From Henriciella sp. (GTDB taxonomy: Bacteria > Pseudomonadota > Alphaproteobacteria > Caulobacterales > Hyphomonadaceae): 32,343 nucleotides of DNA. The DNA lies in contig JASJAO010000021.1 in NCBI GenBank assembly GCA_030066975.1, positions 1-32,343 on the forward strand. Direction: 5' to 3'. Shown here piece by piece: positions 1 to 32,343 of the stretch; position 1 is the first letter of the stretch, and each line of letters begins with the position of its first letter. Under the pieces are notes generated by a model. That model searched no databases and was not told the origin of the DNA. It saw nothing but the letters and a program-made list of their open reading frames with translations. The position numbers were made by a program, and so were the translations under genes.

Positions 1-68
1 CCAATCAGCACATCCGCCTCGCGAAGCTTCCGGATGATCTCCTCAGTTGTGTAACGTTTACGGGCCAT
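1..68 (-). CDS. IS3-family transposase OrfA, N-terminal 22 residues (cut by window edge)
   Basis: The minus strand reads MARKRYTTEEIIRKLREADV and continues off the left edge. This is the characteristic start of the small helix-turn-helix OrfA protein of IS3-family elements (IS407-like group), which binds the IS ends and is normally fused to the OrfB DDE integrase by programmed frameshifting. A strong ribosome-binding sequence (CAGGAG) sits 7 to 12 bases ahead of the ATG, which supports this start. Only the N-terminus is visible, so whether the element is intact cannot be told. The family assignment rests on the N-terminal motif and the nearby terminal sequence. Confidence 0.75.
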   Translation of the reverse strand, partial: MARKRYTTEEIIRKLREADVLI

Positions 69-24909: not shown

Positions 24910-26067
24910 ATGACAAGCTCCGCCCGCACTTTTGAGCTCCTTGAGCGCCTGATCGCCTTCGACACCACGTCGCGCTACTCAAATCTCGGTATCATTGACT
25001 GGATTGAGGCCGAGCTTGCGCCACTGGAACCGGCGCTGCAACGCATCCCGAACTCGACCGGGGACAAGTCTAATCTCTGGGTTCGCATCGGCCCGGACCG
25101 TCCGGGCGGCCTGATCCTGTCAGGCCATACAGATGTTGTCCCGGTGGACGGGCAGGACTGGCACACCGACCCGTTCACGATGACCGAAAAGGACAATCGT
25201 TTCTATGGCCGCGGCACAGCAGACATGAAATCCTTCCTCGCGCTCTGTCTCGCCTTTGCGCCAGCCTTCAAAGCCGCAAATCTCAGTCAGCCGGTCCATT
25301 TCGCTTTCTCCTATGACGAGGAAGTGGGCTGTCAGGGGGCACCGGACATGATCCATCAAATCGTCGATAGGGGCGCGGCCCCCGGGGCGGTCTGGGTCGG
25401 TGAGCCAACGAATTGGCGAGTCGTCTCCGGCCATAAAGGCATCATGCTCACCGAAGTTGAGATCACCGGGAAGGAGGCGCATTCCAGCCTGCCGCATCTC
25501 GGTGTCTCAGCAATAGGAGAGGCAGTGGAGCTTCTGGCTTGTCTAAAAACGATCCAAGCAGATCTCATCGCCGCCGCGCCGAAAGACACGCCGTTTGAAC
25601 CACCTTACCCAACCATGACGGTCGGCGAAATTTCGGGCGGCACGGCAACCAATATCCTCGCCCGGCAATGCAAGTTTCTGTTCGATCTACGCTGCCCACC
25701 CGGCTTCGAGCCGGAGCAGCTGCTCGCCCCTTTCAAGGCCAAGGCGCGCGACATTGATCGCCAGCTCAAAGACCGGTTTCCAGAATGCGGCGTCCGGGTC
25801 ACGCACCTGACCAATGTCCCATCGCTGGCCGCCGTTCCAGACAATCCGGCAGAGCGTCTCGCGCGGGCCATGACCGGTGACAACACGCTTCGCGCCGCGA
25901 CCTTTGCCACCGAAGCCGGACAGTTTCACCGGGCAGGCATCCCGGCCGTCGTCTGTGGCCCCGGCTCAATCGATCAGGCCCACAAACCGAACGAATTCAT
26001 CGAAACCGCCGAAATCACCAAAGGCGTCGACATCTTCTCCAAACTGGTCAGGCACCTGAATGCCTGA
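24910..26067 (+). CDS. argE: Acetylornithine deacetylase (ArgE-type M20 metallopeptidase)
   Basis: A 385-residue amidohydrolase matching ArgE in length, expected to hydrolyse N2-acetylornithine to ornithine in arginine synthesis. The dinuclear metal site is readable: His73 (SGHTDVVP), bridging Asp105 (RGTADMK), base Glu137 and ligand Glu138 (YDEEVGC), a carboxylate in WVGEPTNW, and His in DQAHKPNEF near the C-terminus. The KEAHSS segment belongs to the dimerisation lid. The context of two SDRs rather than arg genes leaves open action on another N-acyl amino acid. It is the last gene before the composition change. Confidence 0.85.
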   Translation: MTSSARTFELLERLIAFDTTSRYSNLGIIDWIEAELAPLEPALQRIPNSTGDKSNLWVRIGPDRPGGLILSGHTDVVPVDGQDWHTDPFTMTEKDNRFYGRGTADMKSFLALCLAFAPAFKAANLSQPVHFAFSYDEEVGCQGAPDMIHQIVDRGAAPGAVWVGEPTNWRVVSGHKGIMLTEVEITGKEAHSSLPHLGVSAIGEAVELLACLKTIQADLIAAAPKDTPFEPPYPTMTVGEISGGTATNILARQCKFLFDLRCPPGFEPEQLLAPFKAKARDIDRQLKDRFPECGVRVTHLTNVPSLAAVPDNPAERLARAMTGDNTLRAATFATEAGQFHRAGIPAVVCGPGSIDQAHKPNEFIETAEITKGVDIFSKLVRHLNA

Positions 26068-26751
26068 CGCCTCCACCTACCGCTTCTCCGTCGCCCCTAC
26101 GATGGATAGAAAATTAAGTTGTTTAAAATCAATAATTTATATTGTGCCGCGCACGCTACGTGCACTCGGTAACCAAGAAGGGAAATGATAAAAAGTGTAC
26201 TTCCGTCAGGAATAATGCACACTATTGTAAGCCACCACATTTTGAAGTTTCGTGCTAATAGCAACCATCACGCTGTAAGCTCATAACCTGAAGGTCGTAG
26301 GTTCAAATCCTACTCCCGCAACCAACAATCCCTCCTGAACCGCTAAAGCCACTAAGATCAATTTGGCCCAAGTTTAAGGGGGAAGGGCAACAGTGTGCAG
26401 CCAAAGATTACGATCCGGCCTGGGTGGCGGCTAAGGATTTTGGTGCAGAGAGATTTTGTGCTGCGAAATTCTTATTGTCGCTACCACTGTTATATATATC
26501 GAAGTATTGAGAGATACGAATTTTCTTCTTTTGTATACTTTGTAATGATTTCGTAAATCTACTTCGATTGGGAAAACAGACGTTCCAGCCGCACCCTAAT
26601 AAAAGCTTCACTTAAGCCTTGGCGGATCCCGTTGTAAAGAACTCTATCGACGAAAGTATAATGAGCGTCGAACGGTCTTCAAAAACACAAGGCTTAAGTA
26701 ATGACACTCTATCTAGAATGTAGTGGGCCTGAGCTTTTTGATCACTCCGCT
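26068..26751. other. AT-rich gene-free stretch with tRNA scar
   Basis: Roughly 680 bases without a gene I can support. It is visibly more AT-rich than everything to the left (poly-A/T tracts around 26110-26145 and 26470-26560). It holds the partial initiator tRNA at 26279-26324 and must contain the promoter of the TolC-like gene. A 67-codon minus-strand frame at 26408-26611 and a short plus-strand frame ending near 26513 have neither start signals nor recognisable products. The stem GCACG-cta-CGTGC near 26151 is small and unassigned. Confidence 0.6.
26279..26324 (+). tRNA. 3' fragment of initiator tRNA-fMet(CAT), probable attachment-site scar
   Basis: The sequence starts in the anticodon loop CTCATAA, continues CCTGAAGGTC, a perfect T-arm GTAGG-TTCAAAT-CCTAC, then acceptor strand TCCCGCA, discriminator A and encoded CCA. 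The CGCAACCA ending is diagnostic of initiator tRNA (the A at position 72 that mismatches C1). Upstream there is no D-arm, no 5' acceptor strand and not even a pairing 5' anticodon stem. The similarity stops at the anticodon, as expected where a tyrosine recombinase crosses over in a tRNA. It cannot fold as a functional tRNA. Confidence 0.85.
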
Positions 26752-28077
26752 ATGCCTAGAGCTATACTTACGATTCTCGTAACGGTCGCCGCCGCATATC
26801 CCTGTTTTGCTCAAAATCCGGATGTCAGTCTGACTGCGAAAAGCGAAACTCAGGCCGCCACCGTGATTGCAGACGCAGAGACACTTCAGACCTGCGATCC
26901 TATTGAGACCGTTTTGGGGCTTTCGGCTTCACGTAGCCCAGCTATCCATGCCTCAGGTGCCATCGTTGATCGTGCTCGATCAGACGCTGCAGTGGCTTCC
27001 TCTCTCAATAAACCGCAATTGTCCGTTTTTGGCAGGTCGCAAGCAGGAGATGGTGGCTTAACCGGAAATGCTCTGGACAATCAAGTCGGCCTTCGCGCCT
27101 CTTTGAGGCTCTTTGATTTTGGTGACGCCCGCCTAGCGCGGACCGCAGCTAATGCTCGTGTGAACTCAGCGATCAGCAACCGTATGTCGGTTGAGACACA
27201 AACGGTACGGCAAACTGCGCTTTCCTATCTGTCAGCTCTAGAAGCGCATGAGCGCCTAAGAATTATTCAAGATAGAGAATCGTATTTCGAAAACCTGCTG
27301 CAAGCCAATCAGAGCGCCCTGGAAAATGGTTATGTTACGCTATCACAAGTGGCGGAAATATCTGCTAATCTAGCCGAAGCTCAAGCCGATAGGATTGAGT
27401 TTGAGTTCCTTATCGATCGTTTCACACAAGAGGTTTCAATCGACGTCGATGAACCGGTAGTCATCTGTACAAATCAGATCCCGCATTTCGGAATTTCAGC
27501 ATTAGACTTTGATGATACCGATGTCGAAGTCGCACTAAATGCCAACCCCGAAATCGTGCGCGCGGAGCAAGATGTGAACGCCTTCGATGCGGATAAAAGG
27601 CGTGAACGGCTTAACCGCACACCAATTGTGGAGGCCGTGGGGATAACGTCTTACTCTTATATCGACCAATTGAATGATTGGGAGTATCGAGATCGTATTG
27701 GTGTAGACGTATCGGTCCCACTTTTTTCTGGCTCAGCGCTGTCTGCACGAGTGCGCGGTGCTGAAGCGGACGTATCAAGAGCGAGATTTGAACTTGCCCA
27801 GATACGCCGACAATTACGTGAAGATATAATACTGACGCACCGGGACTTGCTGTCCTTGGGCGCTCAATTCGAGCGTAGAAAGCATGTCGAAGATATGCAG
27901 CTTCAAAAATTTGAGGCCGCTCAGTTCGAATTTGATAGCAGAATGAAGACACTTCCCGGTCTGATCGAAGACAGGCTTGAATATGAGCAATCCCGCCTGG
28001 TCACCGCGAGCTTGAAGTATGAACACTTACGACAGCAGATTAATCTCATGGCGCTTACCGGAACGCTGATTGAATAG
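26752..28077 (+). CDS. TolC-like outer-membrane protein of a type I secretion system
   Basis: A 441-residue TolC-superfamily channel. The signal peptide MPRAILTILVTVAAAYPCFAQ begins exactly at the ATG at 26752; the frame is open from 26701, but that start would put 17 polar residues ahead of it. The body holds two efflux repeats with long helices: VLGLSASRSPAIHASGAIVDRARSDAAVAS, then RQTALSYLSALEAHERLRII, and later ALNANPEIVRAEQDVNAFDADKRRERLNRTPIVEAVG with GVDVSVPLFSGSALSARVRGAEADVSRARFELAQIRR. It lies convergent to the adaptor and exporter genes, only 20 bases from the adaptor stop. It probably forms the outer-membrane exit for the RTX protein. Codon and base usage are more AT-rich than in the efflux factor at 20841. 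Confidence 0.88.
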   Translation: MPRAILTILVTVAAAYPCFAQNPDVSLTAKSETQAATVIADAETLQTCDPIETVLGLSASRSPAIHASGAIVDRARSDAAVASSLNKPQLSVFGRSQAGDGGLTGNALDNQVGLRASLRLFDFGDARLARTAANARVNSAISNRMSVETQTVRQTALSYLSALEAHERLRIIQDRESYFENLLQANQSALENGYVTLSQVAEISANLAEAQADRIEFEFLIDRFTQEVSIDVDEPVVICTNQIPHFGISALDFDDTDVEVALNANPEIVRAEQDVNAFDADKRRERLNRTPIVEAVGITSYSYIDQLNDWEYRDRIGVDVSVPLFSGSALSARVRGAEADVSRARFELAQIRRQLREDIILTHRDLLSLGAQFERRKHVEDMQLQKFEAAQFEFDSRMKTLPGLIEDRLEYEQSRLVTASLKYEHLRQQINLMALTGTLIE

Positions 28078-28097: not shown

Positions 28098-29390
28098 CTA
28101 TTCACGAAACGTCTTGGACATCGCATCCTGCGCAGGTCTGATCAGATATGAGAGCACTGTGCGACTTTCGGTGCGGACCAAAGCATCGACAGGCATCCCA
28201 GGATAGAGTTGGACATGGGCTGGAAGCTCTTCAGAAGGCGGGAGCTGTACGATTCCCTGATAATAGGAGACGCCCAAATTAGGATCTTCGATCGCATCAG
28301 CTGATATCGTCAGGATCTGCCCGTCCACCTCTGGTGTTGTGTTCTGATTGAAGGCTGACAAACGAAGCGTGACTGTTTGCCCTGGCTCAACCTTATCAAT
28401 ATCTTGCGGCGACACTCTAACGTTTGCAACCAACCGATCATCCTTTGGCACAATGTGCATAATCGGTTCGCCAGCGGCTATCACACCACCCAGCGTATGT
28501 GTCGTTACACCTACAACGCGACCCTTTCTTGGAGCTTTGATTTCCACGCGCGCCAAGCGATCATTCACGGTGATGCGTTGCTCGATAAGTTCAGCAATTT
28601 CGGTTCGAGCGTCCGAGAGCCGCGCGAGGACCTCTTCTCGGGATGAATCTCGAATTCGATTTCGTTCCAACGTGGTTTCACCGATTTGGACTTCAACTCG
28701 TGCCATTTCGGCTGTTAGCGATTCGATCGCGCCTTCAATCGACGCCTTTTCTCGCCGAAGTCCGAGCACTTCTGCCCTGGGTGCAAGTTGCCGATTCATC
28801 ATGAACTCTATAGATGAGAGTTCCTCGTTCAGGATTAACAGCTGTCGGTCCTTCGATGCAATATCGGCCTGGATACCGCTTCTCTGCCTGTTCAATTGTT
28901 CTTCCTGGTTTCGTAAAACTGAGATTTGAGTGGCGAGACTTTGACGTCTTGCAGCGCGATACTCTTTCTGGCTTTGCAGTGCCTGATCCAAGGCGTCTCC
29001 CAACTGCAGATCTGTTGCGCCCCGGCGCAACTCCAACGCCTCATTGCCATCTCTCTCGGCTACAAGCCTGGCTTCCTCAGAGATCAAATCTAGAAGCTTG
29101 GCATCTAATGCTGAGCGAGCGGATAGGATCGCGGTGGCATCTAAGGATATGAGTTTATCGCCTGCCTCAACGAGGTCTCCTTCACGAACATGAATGTCCG
29201 CAACGATGCCACCCTCCAAGTGCTGGATAGCTTTGTTCTGAGATTCCACGACGATTGTGCCAGATGTGATGATCGCGCCCTCAAAGGGCGCCAATACCGA
29301 CCATGCTAATAGTCCTCCAAAGACAAACCCAATTATCGTAGATGCACCAATGAAGTAGTTGCGAATGCTCTTTTCGTTGTTGGGTCGCAT
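28098..29390 (-). CDS. HlyD/PrtE/LapC-type adaptor of type I secretion system
   Basis: A 430-residue membrane-fusion protein. It has a short cytoplasmic N-terminus, one transmembrane helix (about 13-33), the first lipoyl half (GTIVVESQNKAIQHLEGGIVADIHVREGDLVEAGDKLISLD, where QHLEGGIV is the family signature), a long coiled-coil of about 190 residues, the second lipoyl half (RVEIKAPRKGRVVGVTTHTLGGVIAAGEPIMHIVP) and a beta-barrel ending near the C-terminus. The C-terminal PGMPVDALVRTESRTVLSYLIRP is typical of T1SS adaptors. Its ATG shares a base with the exporter stop (TAATG), so the two are one operon. Confidence 0.93.
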   Translation of the reverse strand: MRPNNEKSIRNYFIGASTIIGFVFGGLLAWSVLAPFEGAIITSGTIVVESQNKAIQHLEGGIVADIHVREGDLVEAGDKLISLDATAILSARSALDAKLLDLISEEARLVAERDGNEALELRRGATDLQLGDALDQALQSQKEYRAARRQSLATQISVLRNQEEQLNRQRSGIQADIASKDRQLLILNEELSSIEFMMNRQLAPRAEVLGLRREKASIEGAIESLTAEMARVEVQIGETTLERNRIRDSSREEVLARLSDARTEIAELIEQRITVNDRLARVEIKAPRKGRVVGVTTHTLGGVIAAGEPIMHIVPKDDRLVANVRVSPQDIDKVEPGQTVTLRLSAFNQNTTPEVDGQILTISADAIEDPNLGVSYYQGIVQLPPSEELPAHVQLYPGMPVDALVRTESRTVLSYLIRPAQDAMSKTFRE

Positions 29391-31111
29391 TAGGCTCGCT
29401 CTCTAAGTTGAGAGACATTGTTCTGCGTTGCGTCAGACAATTTCGTAATTACGTCTGACTTGTCGCCAAATAGACGGATTTCACCTCGTTCCAGGACAAG
29501 AAGTTTGGTACAGGCAGCCAGTACATTGGGACGGTGAGCAATGATAATCACGGTGGCCGCTCGGCTCTTCAAGTGCGAGAGGCACTCCAACAGAGCTCTG
29601 TCCCCGGCTGAATCGAGATTGGAATTCGGTTCGTCAAGGATAACAATATTCGGTGATCCAAATACTGCACGCGCCAGACCTATTCTTTGCCTTTGACCTC
29701 CTGACAGGTAGGCACCCCCCTCACCAATTTCTGTTTCATAACCTTTGGACAATTGAAGGATCATCTGATGGCAATCTGCTTCCTCGGCGGCTGCCAATAT
29801 GGCTTCATTATTAGGGGCGTCGCAAAAGCGAGAAATGTTGTTTGCGACACTTCCCGACATGAGATTGACCTGCTGAGGCAAATACCCAATTTGCGGCCCG
29901 AGGCTTTCCGAAGGCCAGCGTGAAAGATCAGCTCCATCGATACGGACGACACCGCGCTCGTAACCCTGAGTGCCCGATAAAACGCGAGCTAGTGTGGATT
30001 TTCCTGCGCCGCTGTTTCCAAGGACTCCCAATATATCACCAGGTTCCAGTGAAAAACGAATATCCCTCAGAATAGGTGCCTGACCACTCCTTTTAAGAAC
30101 ATAAACATTTTCAACGGAAACTTTACCTGCGATAGGGGGCAGCTCGATCACTTGTTCACTTTCAGGTAGTATATCAAGGGATTTCTTAAGCGATGACCAC
30201 GCTTGCCCTGTTGAAACGATCAATCGCCATTGTCCAAGTGTTTGCTCAATCGGCGCAATCGCTCGTCCCATTAGAATAGACGCGGCGATCATCGCCCCTG
30301 GTGTGGAAACACCAATAATCGCGAGATAAGCGCCCAAACCCAAAATTGCCGATTGCATAAACAGACGGATCGCTTTGGTTGATGCTGTGAAACGGCTAAG
30401 TAGCTTACTCGCGCGGTCGTTTTGCCCGTCCGATTGATCCAGTACAGAGCGCCACCTTTTCTGGAGTGAGGATCGCATCCCCATCGCATCAATAACTTCA
30501 ACATTGGCAGAAAGCTCCCGAGCAAGCTGTTCGGCATTTCGTTCACATCCGTCCGCGCGGATGCTTGGGCCTTTAGTGAGGAAGCGGTTTAAAAGGGCAA
30601 TTGCGATGAGCACTGCTGTTCCAAACAACGCCCAGGCTCCAAAGGACCAATGAAGCATAAAAAGGGCGATAAAAAATAACGGCGCCCAAGGCAAATCCGA
30701 TAGTGCCGGCAATGCGGGGCTGCCAACAAATTTCTTAATGGCCTTCAAGTCGCTCAGCGTCTTGTTCGATGTTCCCCCACGATCAGCAAGAGACTTCTGC
30801 AATGTTGCCGCCAGAGCGGCATCAGCAAGCCGATCTTCGATTTGAGATCCAATTGTGCTGAAAATGCTTGAGCGGATCCAGTCGAGAATGGCCAGTGTCG
30901 CATAAAGTGCTCCAACCAAGATCGTCAACGAGATTAATGTCGGGACCGATCCACTTGCCAATACCCGATCGTAGACCTGAAGCATGTAGAGCGGGCCGGT
31001 TAACATCAAGACGCTAATGACAAAGGCGAGGACGCCGAGCCCAACCAGGGCTCGGCGAGACTGATTTACAGCATCAAATACAGCTGAATGTTTCGAGTTA
31101 GCCGCAGGCAT
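29390..31111 (-). CDS. Type I secretion ABC exporter, PrtD/LapB-type
   Basis: A 573-residue fused membrane/ATPase protein. The membrane half (about 20-310) opens with VLMLTGPLYMLQVYDRVLASGSVPTL, the hallmark of the PrtD/AprD exporter group, which lacks the C39-like domain of HlyB. The ATPase half has Walker A GNSGAGKSTLAR, the signature YLSGGQRQRIGLARAVF, Walker B NIVILDEPNSNLD and the switch IIAHRP. I choose the ATG at 31111, which follows AAGAGAG and lies five bases after the RTX gene stop; the longer frame to 31150 would overlap that gene. It should export the adjacent RTX protein through the C-terminal signal. Confidence 0.92.
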   Translation of the reverse strand: MPAANSKHSAVFDAVNQSRRALVGLGVLAFVISVLMLTGPLYMLQVYDRVLASGSVPTLISLTILVGALYATLAILDWIRSSIFSTIGSQIEDRLADAALAATLQKSLADRGGTSNKTLSDLKAIKKFVGSPALPALSDLPWAPLFFIALFMLHWSFGAWALFGTAVLIAIALLNRFLTKGPSIRADGCERNAEQLARELSANVEVIDAMGMRSSLQKRWRSVLDQSDGQNDRASKLLSRFTASTKAIRLFMQSAILGLGAYLAIIGVSTPGAMIAASILMGRAIAPIEQTLGQWRLIVSTGQAWSSLKKSLDILPESEQVIELPPIAGKVSVENVYVLKRSGQAPILRDIRFSLEPGDILGVLGNSGAGKSTLARVLSGTQGYERGVVRIDGADLSRWPSESLGPQIGYLPQQVNLMSGSVANNISRFCDAPNNEAILAAAEEADCHQMILQLSKGYETEIGEGGAYLSGGQRQRIGLARAVFGSPNIVILDEPNSNLDSAGDRALLECLSHLKSRAATVIIIAHRPNVLAACTKLLVLERGEIRLFGDKSDVITKLSDATQNNVSQLRERA

Positions 31112-31116
31112 CTCTC

Positions 31117-32343
31117 TTAGGCAATCTCTGCCCACTGGTTTTGAAGCCAAGAGTCAGGATCATGCGGCGCGGTGGGTAGGTATAGAATATCCGCCGACAC
31201 TTTTGCCTCTGGTGCTTCATCCATGATAATCTTGATATCTTCATCAGGGCTGAGCTTAATCGTCGAAAACTCAGTCTCAGTCGCCGCCTTGATTTCGATT
31301 TGATCCTCGGCGAGCCACATGCCTACGATGCCATTGTCCGGAACTGTAATGTCGCGCTCAGGCCCCGTAGCCACATCGAGTTTGACCGTACTCAGCATAT
31401 GCCCAAGATTGTCTGGTAGTTCGATCGTATCACTCTCACGCCAGTCATCTAGCACACTATCGTCAACTCTTCTGACGGATGTATCGTCATGATGCTGGGG
31501 GAACTCCGATACGGATAGTTCATTGAGGACTTGATCCAACGACTCTCCAAGACGATTGTCGATCCTTGACCGTGCAAACTCAATTCCTGGCCGCAGCTCC
31601 ACGCTTCGATCATAATCAACGAAGTACTTTGAAATGTCGTCAATCTGCCCGCGGAAATTGGTGATCGCGTCGGCCTCGGTATTTTGCTGATAGCTCAAAG
31701 CAGCATCTGCGACGTCAACGCTTCGACCAGTGTCAAAGATTGCGCTTGTTTCTCCATAGAGCGTAGCATTTGCATTAGGTTGTGCGCCTTCGAAGTCCGC
31801 GCGAGACAGCGACAAAGCGAGCAATCCGGCGTCGACAACACTCGCCAGTTCACCTTCATCGCTCACCCCGTTCTGATTGGTATCGGTCCAAAGGAGGAAG
31901 TCAGAGAATTGCTCATCAGCTGCTGAGAACAAGCCATCGCCATTTGTGTCGAACGCACGCAAGCCCTCAAGATCGGTGCGAGCGCCTGGAAGGTCGGAGA
32001 CGAAGGAAATCTCGTTCCCAGATGAGATCGTTCCATCGCCGTCTCTGTCCAGGGCTAAGATGGCATCGCCCTGATCGACCCATGCACCGAGTTCCACTGC
32101 TGTATCTGAGTCGAAGTCGAAAGAGACCGACTGATTGGCAAAATATATCCCATCGCCATCCAAATCGAATATAATTGGAGGCAGTGTACCGTCGATGATG
32201 TTCAGAATGTCGGTTGTCGTCCAAACGGTGCCATCATCGAAGATAATCTCTTCGATCTGGTCGCCATTGGAATACTCCAACGTGTTCCAGATGGTGATTT
32301 GATCGCTCGTCCCGGCAAATGTGAGGATGAGATCGTCGCCAGA
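31117..32343 (-). CDS. RTX-type secreted protein, C-terminal 408 residues (5' end beyond window)
   Basis: The minus-strand frame is open to the window edge. It begins SGDDLILTFAGTSDQITIWN with IEEIIFDDGTVW, the haemolysin-type calcium-binding associated repeat. A domain follows that opens PIIFDLDGDGIYFANQSVSFDFDSD and carries EF-hand-like calcium loops: DRDGDGTISSGNE, DTNGDGLFSAADE and DTNQNGVSDEGE. This block is common near the end of very large RTX adhesins and toxins. About 200 further acidic residues include the uncleaved C-terminal secretion signal, ending QNQWAEIA. It sits directly upstream of the exporter in the same direction, so it is the probable cargo. The activity (adhesin, enzyme or toxin) lies in the missing part. 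Confidence 0.88.
   Translation of the reverse strand, partial: SGDDLILTFAGTSDQITIWNTLEYSNGDQIEEIIFDDGTVWTTTDILNIIDGTLPPIIFDLDGDGIYFANQSVSFDFDSDTAVELGAWVDQGDAILALDRDGDGTISSGNEISFVSDLPGARTDLEGLRAFDTNGDGLFSAADEQFSDFLLWTDTNQNGVSDEGELASVVDAGLLALSLSRADFEGAQPNANATLYGETSAIFDTGRSVDVADAALSYQQNTEADAITNFRGQIDDISKYFVDYDRSVELRPGIEFARSRIDNRLGESLDQVLNELSVSEFPQHHDDTSVRRVDDSVLDDWRESDTIELPDNLGHMLSTVKLDVATGPERDITVPDNGIVGMWLAEDQIEIKAATETEFSTIKLSPDEDIKIIMDEAPEAKVSADILYLPTAPHDPDSWLQNQWAEIA

Follow-up and report, generated by a model that had tools for sequence, protein, structure and literature searches.

An attachment scar of the initiator tRNA in Henriciella, probably at the seam between two acquired blocks

Results

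Layout of the locus

The window, that is, the whole stretch of 32,343 nucleotides that we analyzed, is one entire contig (C4) of the draft genome of a Henriciella sp. (G000; 3,571,995 bases in 24 contigs). Its left end carries a frame, read directly (1..68, minus strand), which we take to be the start of an IS3-type orfA. An ABC transporter pair lies at about 18.8-20.7 kb, and a peptidase M20 gene (24910..26067, plus strand) is the nearest gene to the left of the feature described here, a 45-base piece of a tRNA gene (26280..26324, plus strand). Between the two stands an AT-rich non-coding flank of 212 bp (26068..26279), with a computed GC content of 43%. To the right of the piece come the decayed C-terminal end of TrbI, a VirB10-like conjugation protein (26362..26466, plus strand); a gene for an outer membrane efflux protein of the TolC type, the first on that side (26701..28077, plus strand); HlyD-type and ABC-type genes of a type I secretion system (28098..31150, minus strand); and the C-terminal part of an RTX-like protein, related to haemolysin-type calcium-binding proteins and truncated by the contig end (31117..32343, minus strand). 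From 0.588 left of 26067 the GC content falls to 0.43 in the two non-coding flanks and is then 0.507 on the right side, and the tRNA piece is located at this GC step.

The piece, CTCATAACC...CGCAACCA, corresponds to the initiator tRNA (fMet) between the first anticodon-loop base and the encoded CCA, both included, and has nothing of the 5' half. A sequence-only reading had described it in these terms, and 45 exact bases bear this out; the preceding G, at 26279, is also compatible with the tRNA and may match by chance, because most orphan 3' parts in relatives share zero or one base before the anticodon-loop C. Neither ARAGORN nor Rfam calls a tRNA in the window. With up to three mismatches allowed, the fragment occurs once in the draft and its reversed control not at all. 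Given the 45 exact bases, the single copy and the empty control, the match to fMet is not chance. The RNA fold of the fragment and its right flank is ordinary (z 0.40). A plasmid search with 26060-26760 returned 347 records, of which the 10 listed align to the tRNA piece and to a few bases beside it at most.

Orphans and integrases in relatives

Searched with a 46-base pattern at a tolerance of up to three mismatches, by which a more divergent native fMet would be missed, 43 of 61 genomes (G000 among them) gave a match. Within the genus the pattern found an intact fMet in 20 of 28 relatives and orphan 3' parts in nine (G004, G006, G008, G010, G011, G018, G023, G024 and G026), with no match in G009, G015, G019 and G027; two order-level genomes outside the genus (G039 and G040) have orphans as well. 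The sequence-only reading had called initiator tRNA genes a comparatively unusual target. The nine orphans among 28 same-genus genomes speak otherwise, as do 92 stretches of viral contigs and the prophages described in a Paracoccus study (PMC6536676).

In most of the relatives' orphans the shared segment begins at the same anticodon-loop C, give or take one base, and the G000 fragment likewise begins at the anticodon loop, a known crossover subsite in the Islander signature. The orphans of G010 and G023 begin four and six bases earlier. At eight of the 11 orphan loci (L065, L068/L248, L069, L070, L072, L073, L074 and L075; identified by blastp, five of them Pfam-checked), a tyrosine integrase gene lies to the left, on the 5' side, and points away from the orphan, its start being 20 to 212 bp off when start codons are assigned mechanically. 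The integrase of G006 (L068/L248) is split over two frames. These orphans and integrases uphold the earlier view of the fragment as an attachment-site scar of the tyrosine-integrase kind. An adjacent integrase is missing at L077 (contig end), at L247 of G023 (contig end; two integrase queries only) and at L048/L246 of G010, where an insertion sequence is present. On contig C107 of G010 (L246) we see two inverted copies of what is presumably an IS21-like gene pair, one of them ending near the orphan.

Starting about 30 bp beyond the CCA, the orphan flanks of G004 and G018 align collinearly, at about 94% (tblastx), with the flanking DNA of the intact G017 fMet. This comparison fixes the geometry for the clean case, with the element on the 5' side and native DNA with its terminator on the 3' side. 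Weaker comparisons come from the G008 orphan and the intact fMet of G028, which share a GGDEF gene (about 88%) that is about 560 bp further off in G028, and from G026, G024 and G003, where a partly shared LysR-like gene (about 71%) lies at distances of about 81, 3530 and 1118 bp. A terminator scan placed a terminator just after the CCA in two flanks, that of the G004 orphan and that of the G026 element; for the G004 element flank (L069) it reported none, though one is visible by eye. At L071 (1448-1481) the element supplies its own terminator right after the restored fMet, so that the rRNA operon keeps one; for L069 the scan gave no confirmation of this. No empty site for the G000 locus was found in the relatives searched.

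Serine recombinases at the same tRNA

In G008, G012, G021 and G022 a large serine recombinase gene is convergent with fMet and has a frame that stops within the tRNA (the G021 frame is broken). The G008 protein has Resolvase, Recombinase and zinc ribbon domains by Pfam. When G012 (L242-L245) is set against the empty site of G025 (L249), the flank of the empty site resumes 63.8 kb after the CCA. Both ends of the G012 element have CTCCCGCACCCA, identical to the final 12 bases of the tRNA, and the empty site has a single copy of it. This 63.7-kb element carries trb genes, a TraG-type coupling protein, a relaxase-like protein and AbiEii, and neither tblastn with 14 queries nor Pfam on 10 proteins of its some 60 frames found a tyrosine integrase in it. 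Members of this recombinase family are convergent with fMet at 16 of at least 115 named loci (17 have a hit). Among open-licence papers, we found no report of a mapped conjugative serine-recombinase element at fMet.

Both classes flank one orphan, the tyrosine integrase on the left and the serine recombinase on the right, in G011 (L065) and in two viral stretches (L271 and L279). At L065 the serine recombinase survives as a remnant, recognized in the right flank by blastx in shifted frames (best E 8e-18). By analogy, these three arrangements may serve as a model for two elements meeting at a scar; they are not proof for G000, in which no recombinase remnant was found to the right of the fragment. 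Elsewhere in G000 (loci L257 on C16, L256 on C24 and L258 on C12), tRNA-Arg(ccg) and tRNA-Leu(tag) are each crossed by the frame of a large serine recombinase, and a third such frame ends in a tail that presumably resembles tRNA-encoded sequence, without a whole tRNA.

Base 73 of the fragment

All 20 intact fMet genes found in the genus have C before the CCA (C73), and the fragment has A (A73). Six of the ten genus orphans have C73; the A73 orphans are those of G000, G010, G011 and G023. Named genomes have at least 115 loci with the exact G000 form, many of these, by title, in Rhodobacteraceae and sphingomonads. This form is also that of the 92 viral stretches (some contigs give two), which comprise 70 orphans, 14 intact genes and eight copies too near an end, and no viral contig has the C73 form. 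Because A73 is found in viral stretches and C73 in none of them, while C73 is found in all intact genes of the genus, the sequences suggest an element as the source of the fragment or of its last bases. As a serious caveat, A73 could be native in G000, G010, G011 and G023, because no intact fMet was found in any of these four genomes. A native fMet ending in CGCACCCA would favor a foreign tail for the fragment, and one ending in CGCAACCA would favor a plain host scar.

The intact fMet of G000

None of the 40 tRNA hits in the G000 draft (RF00005), all typed by ARAGORN (30 loci, then the other 10), is an initiator tRNA, and the two with a CAT anticodon differ from it in sequence. A looser pattern run over the fetched G000 loci matched the fragment alone. 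Contig C8 (L081:4860-6771) has a CAT tRNA and then a 582-aa tyrosine integrase near the contig end, at which we see what we take to be a transposase-like piece. Contig C13 holds 16S, tRNA-Ile, tRNA-Ala and 23S, and ends at position 2600 of the 2925 of the 23S model. A 5S search gave no hit in G000 with 150 of 201 candidates scored, its control being detected in 11 of 14 genomes. In G004 and G018 the distance from tRNA-Ala to fMet is about 3.5 kb, which puts fMet at the tail of the rRNA operon. As C13 stops inside 23S and the relatives' fMet sits at the operon tail, the intact fMet of G000 is most likely unassembled, in the gap at that tail. The sequence-only reading had expected an intact fMet with an integrase to the left, beyond position 1. 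Within the contig, which ends at position 1, this expectation finds no support: its left end is an insertion-sequence piece and not fMet, and the integrase and recombinase profiles PF00589 and PF07508 have no match on C4.

Flanks of the fragment

The TrbI remnant sits 38-142 bp right of the fragment and points away from it, with no 5' part seen. It covers positions 164-188 of the 188 of the Pfam model with an E of 0.0068, under the curated cut-off, and matches the TrbI of G008 by tblastn at E 6e-7. Its local score of 85-86 compares with 33 +/- 4.1 for shuffles (maximum 49, n=400). No TrbI in G000 passes the family cut-off, the sole other profile hit being a sub-threshold piece on C17, and a solved-structure search with the stump returned nothing. 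Of the integrase and conjugation genes that would make up an fMet-targeting Trb element, C4 has this C-terminal trbI stump alone.

Some blastn matches to relatives extend 8-15 bp beyond the CCA into the right flank, where likeness to the relatives' flanks ends; none of the relatives' native genes was found there. For the first 20 bases after the CCA, 153 of 2000 shuffles resemble the flanks of 27 relatives equally well. The terminator scan, an insensitive one that misses the terminator visible in L069, found none to the right of the fragment. The left flank matches neither known attachment arms nor any fetched locus, and is possibly the remnant of an element end. Sought in G000 as a native fMet flank, a GGDEF protein (300 residues) gave distant hits alone, the best at 39%, and the 10.6-kb flagellar flank of G008 had no match in G000 DNA, an empty answer of a kind that shows little.

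Eight of 24 same-genus relatives have a close homologue of the M20 gene (63-70%). Inspection of seven showed no other gene of the window alongside at over 120 bits. The ABC transporter pair has matches at 71% in G040 and G044, which belong to another family, and partial ones in further order-level genomes; no same-genus match is among those listed (eight candidates per genome scored). With the same scoring, the listed same-genus DNA matches to the 13.8 kb left of the scar are mostly to the M20 gene, a short-chain dehydrogenase and short stretches. The TolC-type gene has a close homologue in one of 24 same-genus relatives, G008 (73%), where HlyD, HlyB and RTX genes follow in the order of the window. 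This gene order in G008 likewise lies near a contig end. Judged by these matches, the blocks left and right of the scar are both patchy in the genus.

Discussion

The fragment is a genuine attachment scar; its kind is known and ordinary, its setting instructive. We consider it somewhat probable that it marks a seam between two acquired blocks. Mobile DNA would have integrated site-specifically into fMet at the rRNA operon tail, the elements of this group presumably recombining at the anticodon loop through a tyrosine integrase. Such an element would supply a replacement 3' half and displace the old one to its far end, where it would persist as the fragment. To the left of the G000 scar would then stand the acquired block or its remainder, with the integrase lost; to the right, what is left of a second element, a conjugative one represented by the trbI piece, and then the AT-rich secretion operon. 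The mobility of both sides and the order of events are what we infer. The sequence-only reading had named a second element inserted at the scar as its alternative, and with a TrbI remnant in the right flank this alternative fits better than the island it preferred.

Several observations weigh against the seam. No integrase matches C4 and no serine-recombinase remnant was found right of the fragment, and the trbI remnant faces the other way from its counterparts in the serine-type elements of G008 and G012. A73 is possibly native in the four genomes that have it. The short likeness past the CCA is what a decayed native terminator would give, shuffles equal it at the rate stated above, and the empty answer of the terminator scan is weak. 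The GC content of the left block is also close to the average of 38 other G000 loci (0.566). A plain tRNA island would read the first bases after the CCA as weakly like the relatives' terminators: one island would reach from the unassembled fMet to 26279, and the DNA to the right would be native, its flank decayed and rearranged. The standard geometry of the relatives argues for such an island, as do the patchy genes on the left, with M20 in a third of the relatives compared and the ABC pair shared with G040 and G044 and none listed in the genus. Of the claim that the island lies left of the fragment, the geometry thus stands in relatives; for G000 it falters on the lack of an integrase match at the expected place or elsewhere on C4, on a right flank that is not recognizably native, and on the TrbI remnant in it. 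The lower GC content of the right side (0.43, then 0.51, against 0.59) and the single same-genus homologue of the TolC-type gene count against it as well. We place an island with the left genes as cargo second, as an unlikely account, because no integrase or tRNA on C4 backs it; the simple geometry of island on the left and native DNA on the right is not shown for G000.

It is quite improbable that the fragment is instead the attP core of a right-hand element at a secondary, non-tRNA site, or a rearranged one, next to a left block of ordinary chromosome. The A73 form shared with the viral stretches and their 70 orphans would suit that origin, and so would the GC content of the left block, but the 6 kb to the right of the fragment contain no recombinase match and the left genes are themselves patchy. 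An assembly chimera at the repeated 45-mer, or a chance similarity, is very improbable. The fragment does lie at a GC step in a draft with a broken rRNA operon; against this, its 45 bases are exact and both flanks continue for thousands of bases, and a 45-base repeat is shorter than the usual assembly words. Within the favored seam between two acquired blocks, we tentatively offer a further idea, itself doubtful: fMet may have two insertion points, the anticodon loop for tyrosine enzymes and the last 12 bases for serine enzymes, so that both classes would stack behind the rRNA operon. The G000 piece could then be a relic of such stacking, with a body derived from the host and a tail of last bases, A73 among them, contributed by the element on the right.

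The scar differs from the systems nearest to it. From the account of Islander-type tRNA islands (PMC4383910), G000 departs in that no cognate tRNA is assembled, no integrase matches the contig and the right side is not native-like. With the Trb-type conjugative elements that carry a large serine recombinase at fMet in G008 and G012, it has trbI and the use of fMet in common; unlike them, it has a trbI stump alone, turned the other way, and the contig gave no serine recombinase when searched. In the Paracoccus virome, a CAT tRNA is the commonest tRNA target, with 10 tyrosine-type prophages and one serine-type phage, vB_PamS_Pami6, in tRNA-Met(CAT), in a main text that does not use the words initiator or fMet (PMC6536676). 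Both this target and one serine-type case are thus already in print there; in contrast to those prophages, no phage genes were recognized beside the G000 scar. The description of Islander-type islands has the same start of the 3' fragment at the anticodon loop, as subsite 'A', and the relatives' elements lie on the side that it predicts (PMC4383910). The G000 scar records the arrival of DNA behind the rRNA operon, and the initiator tRNA appears in this group as a busy docking site rather than a rare one.
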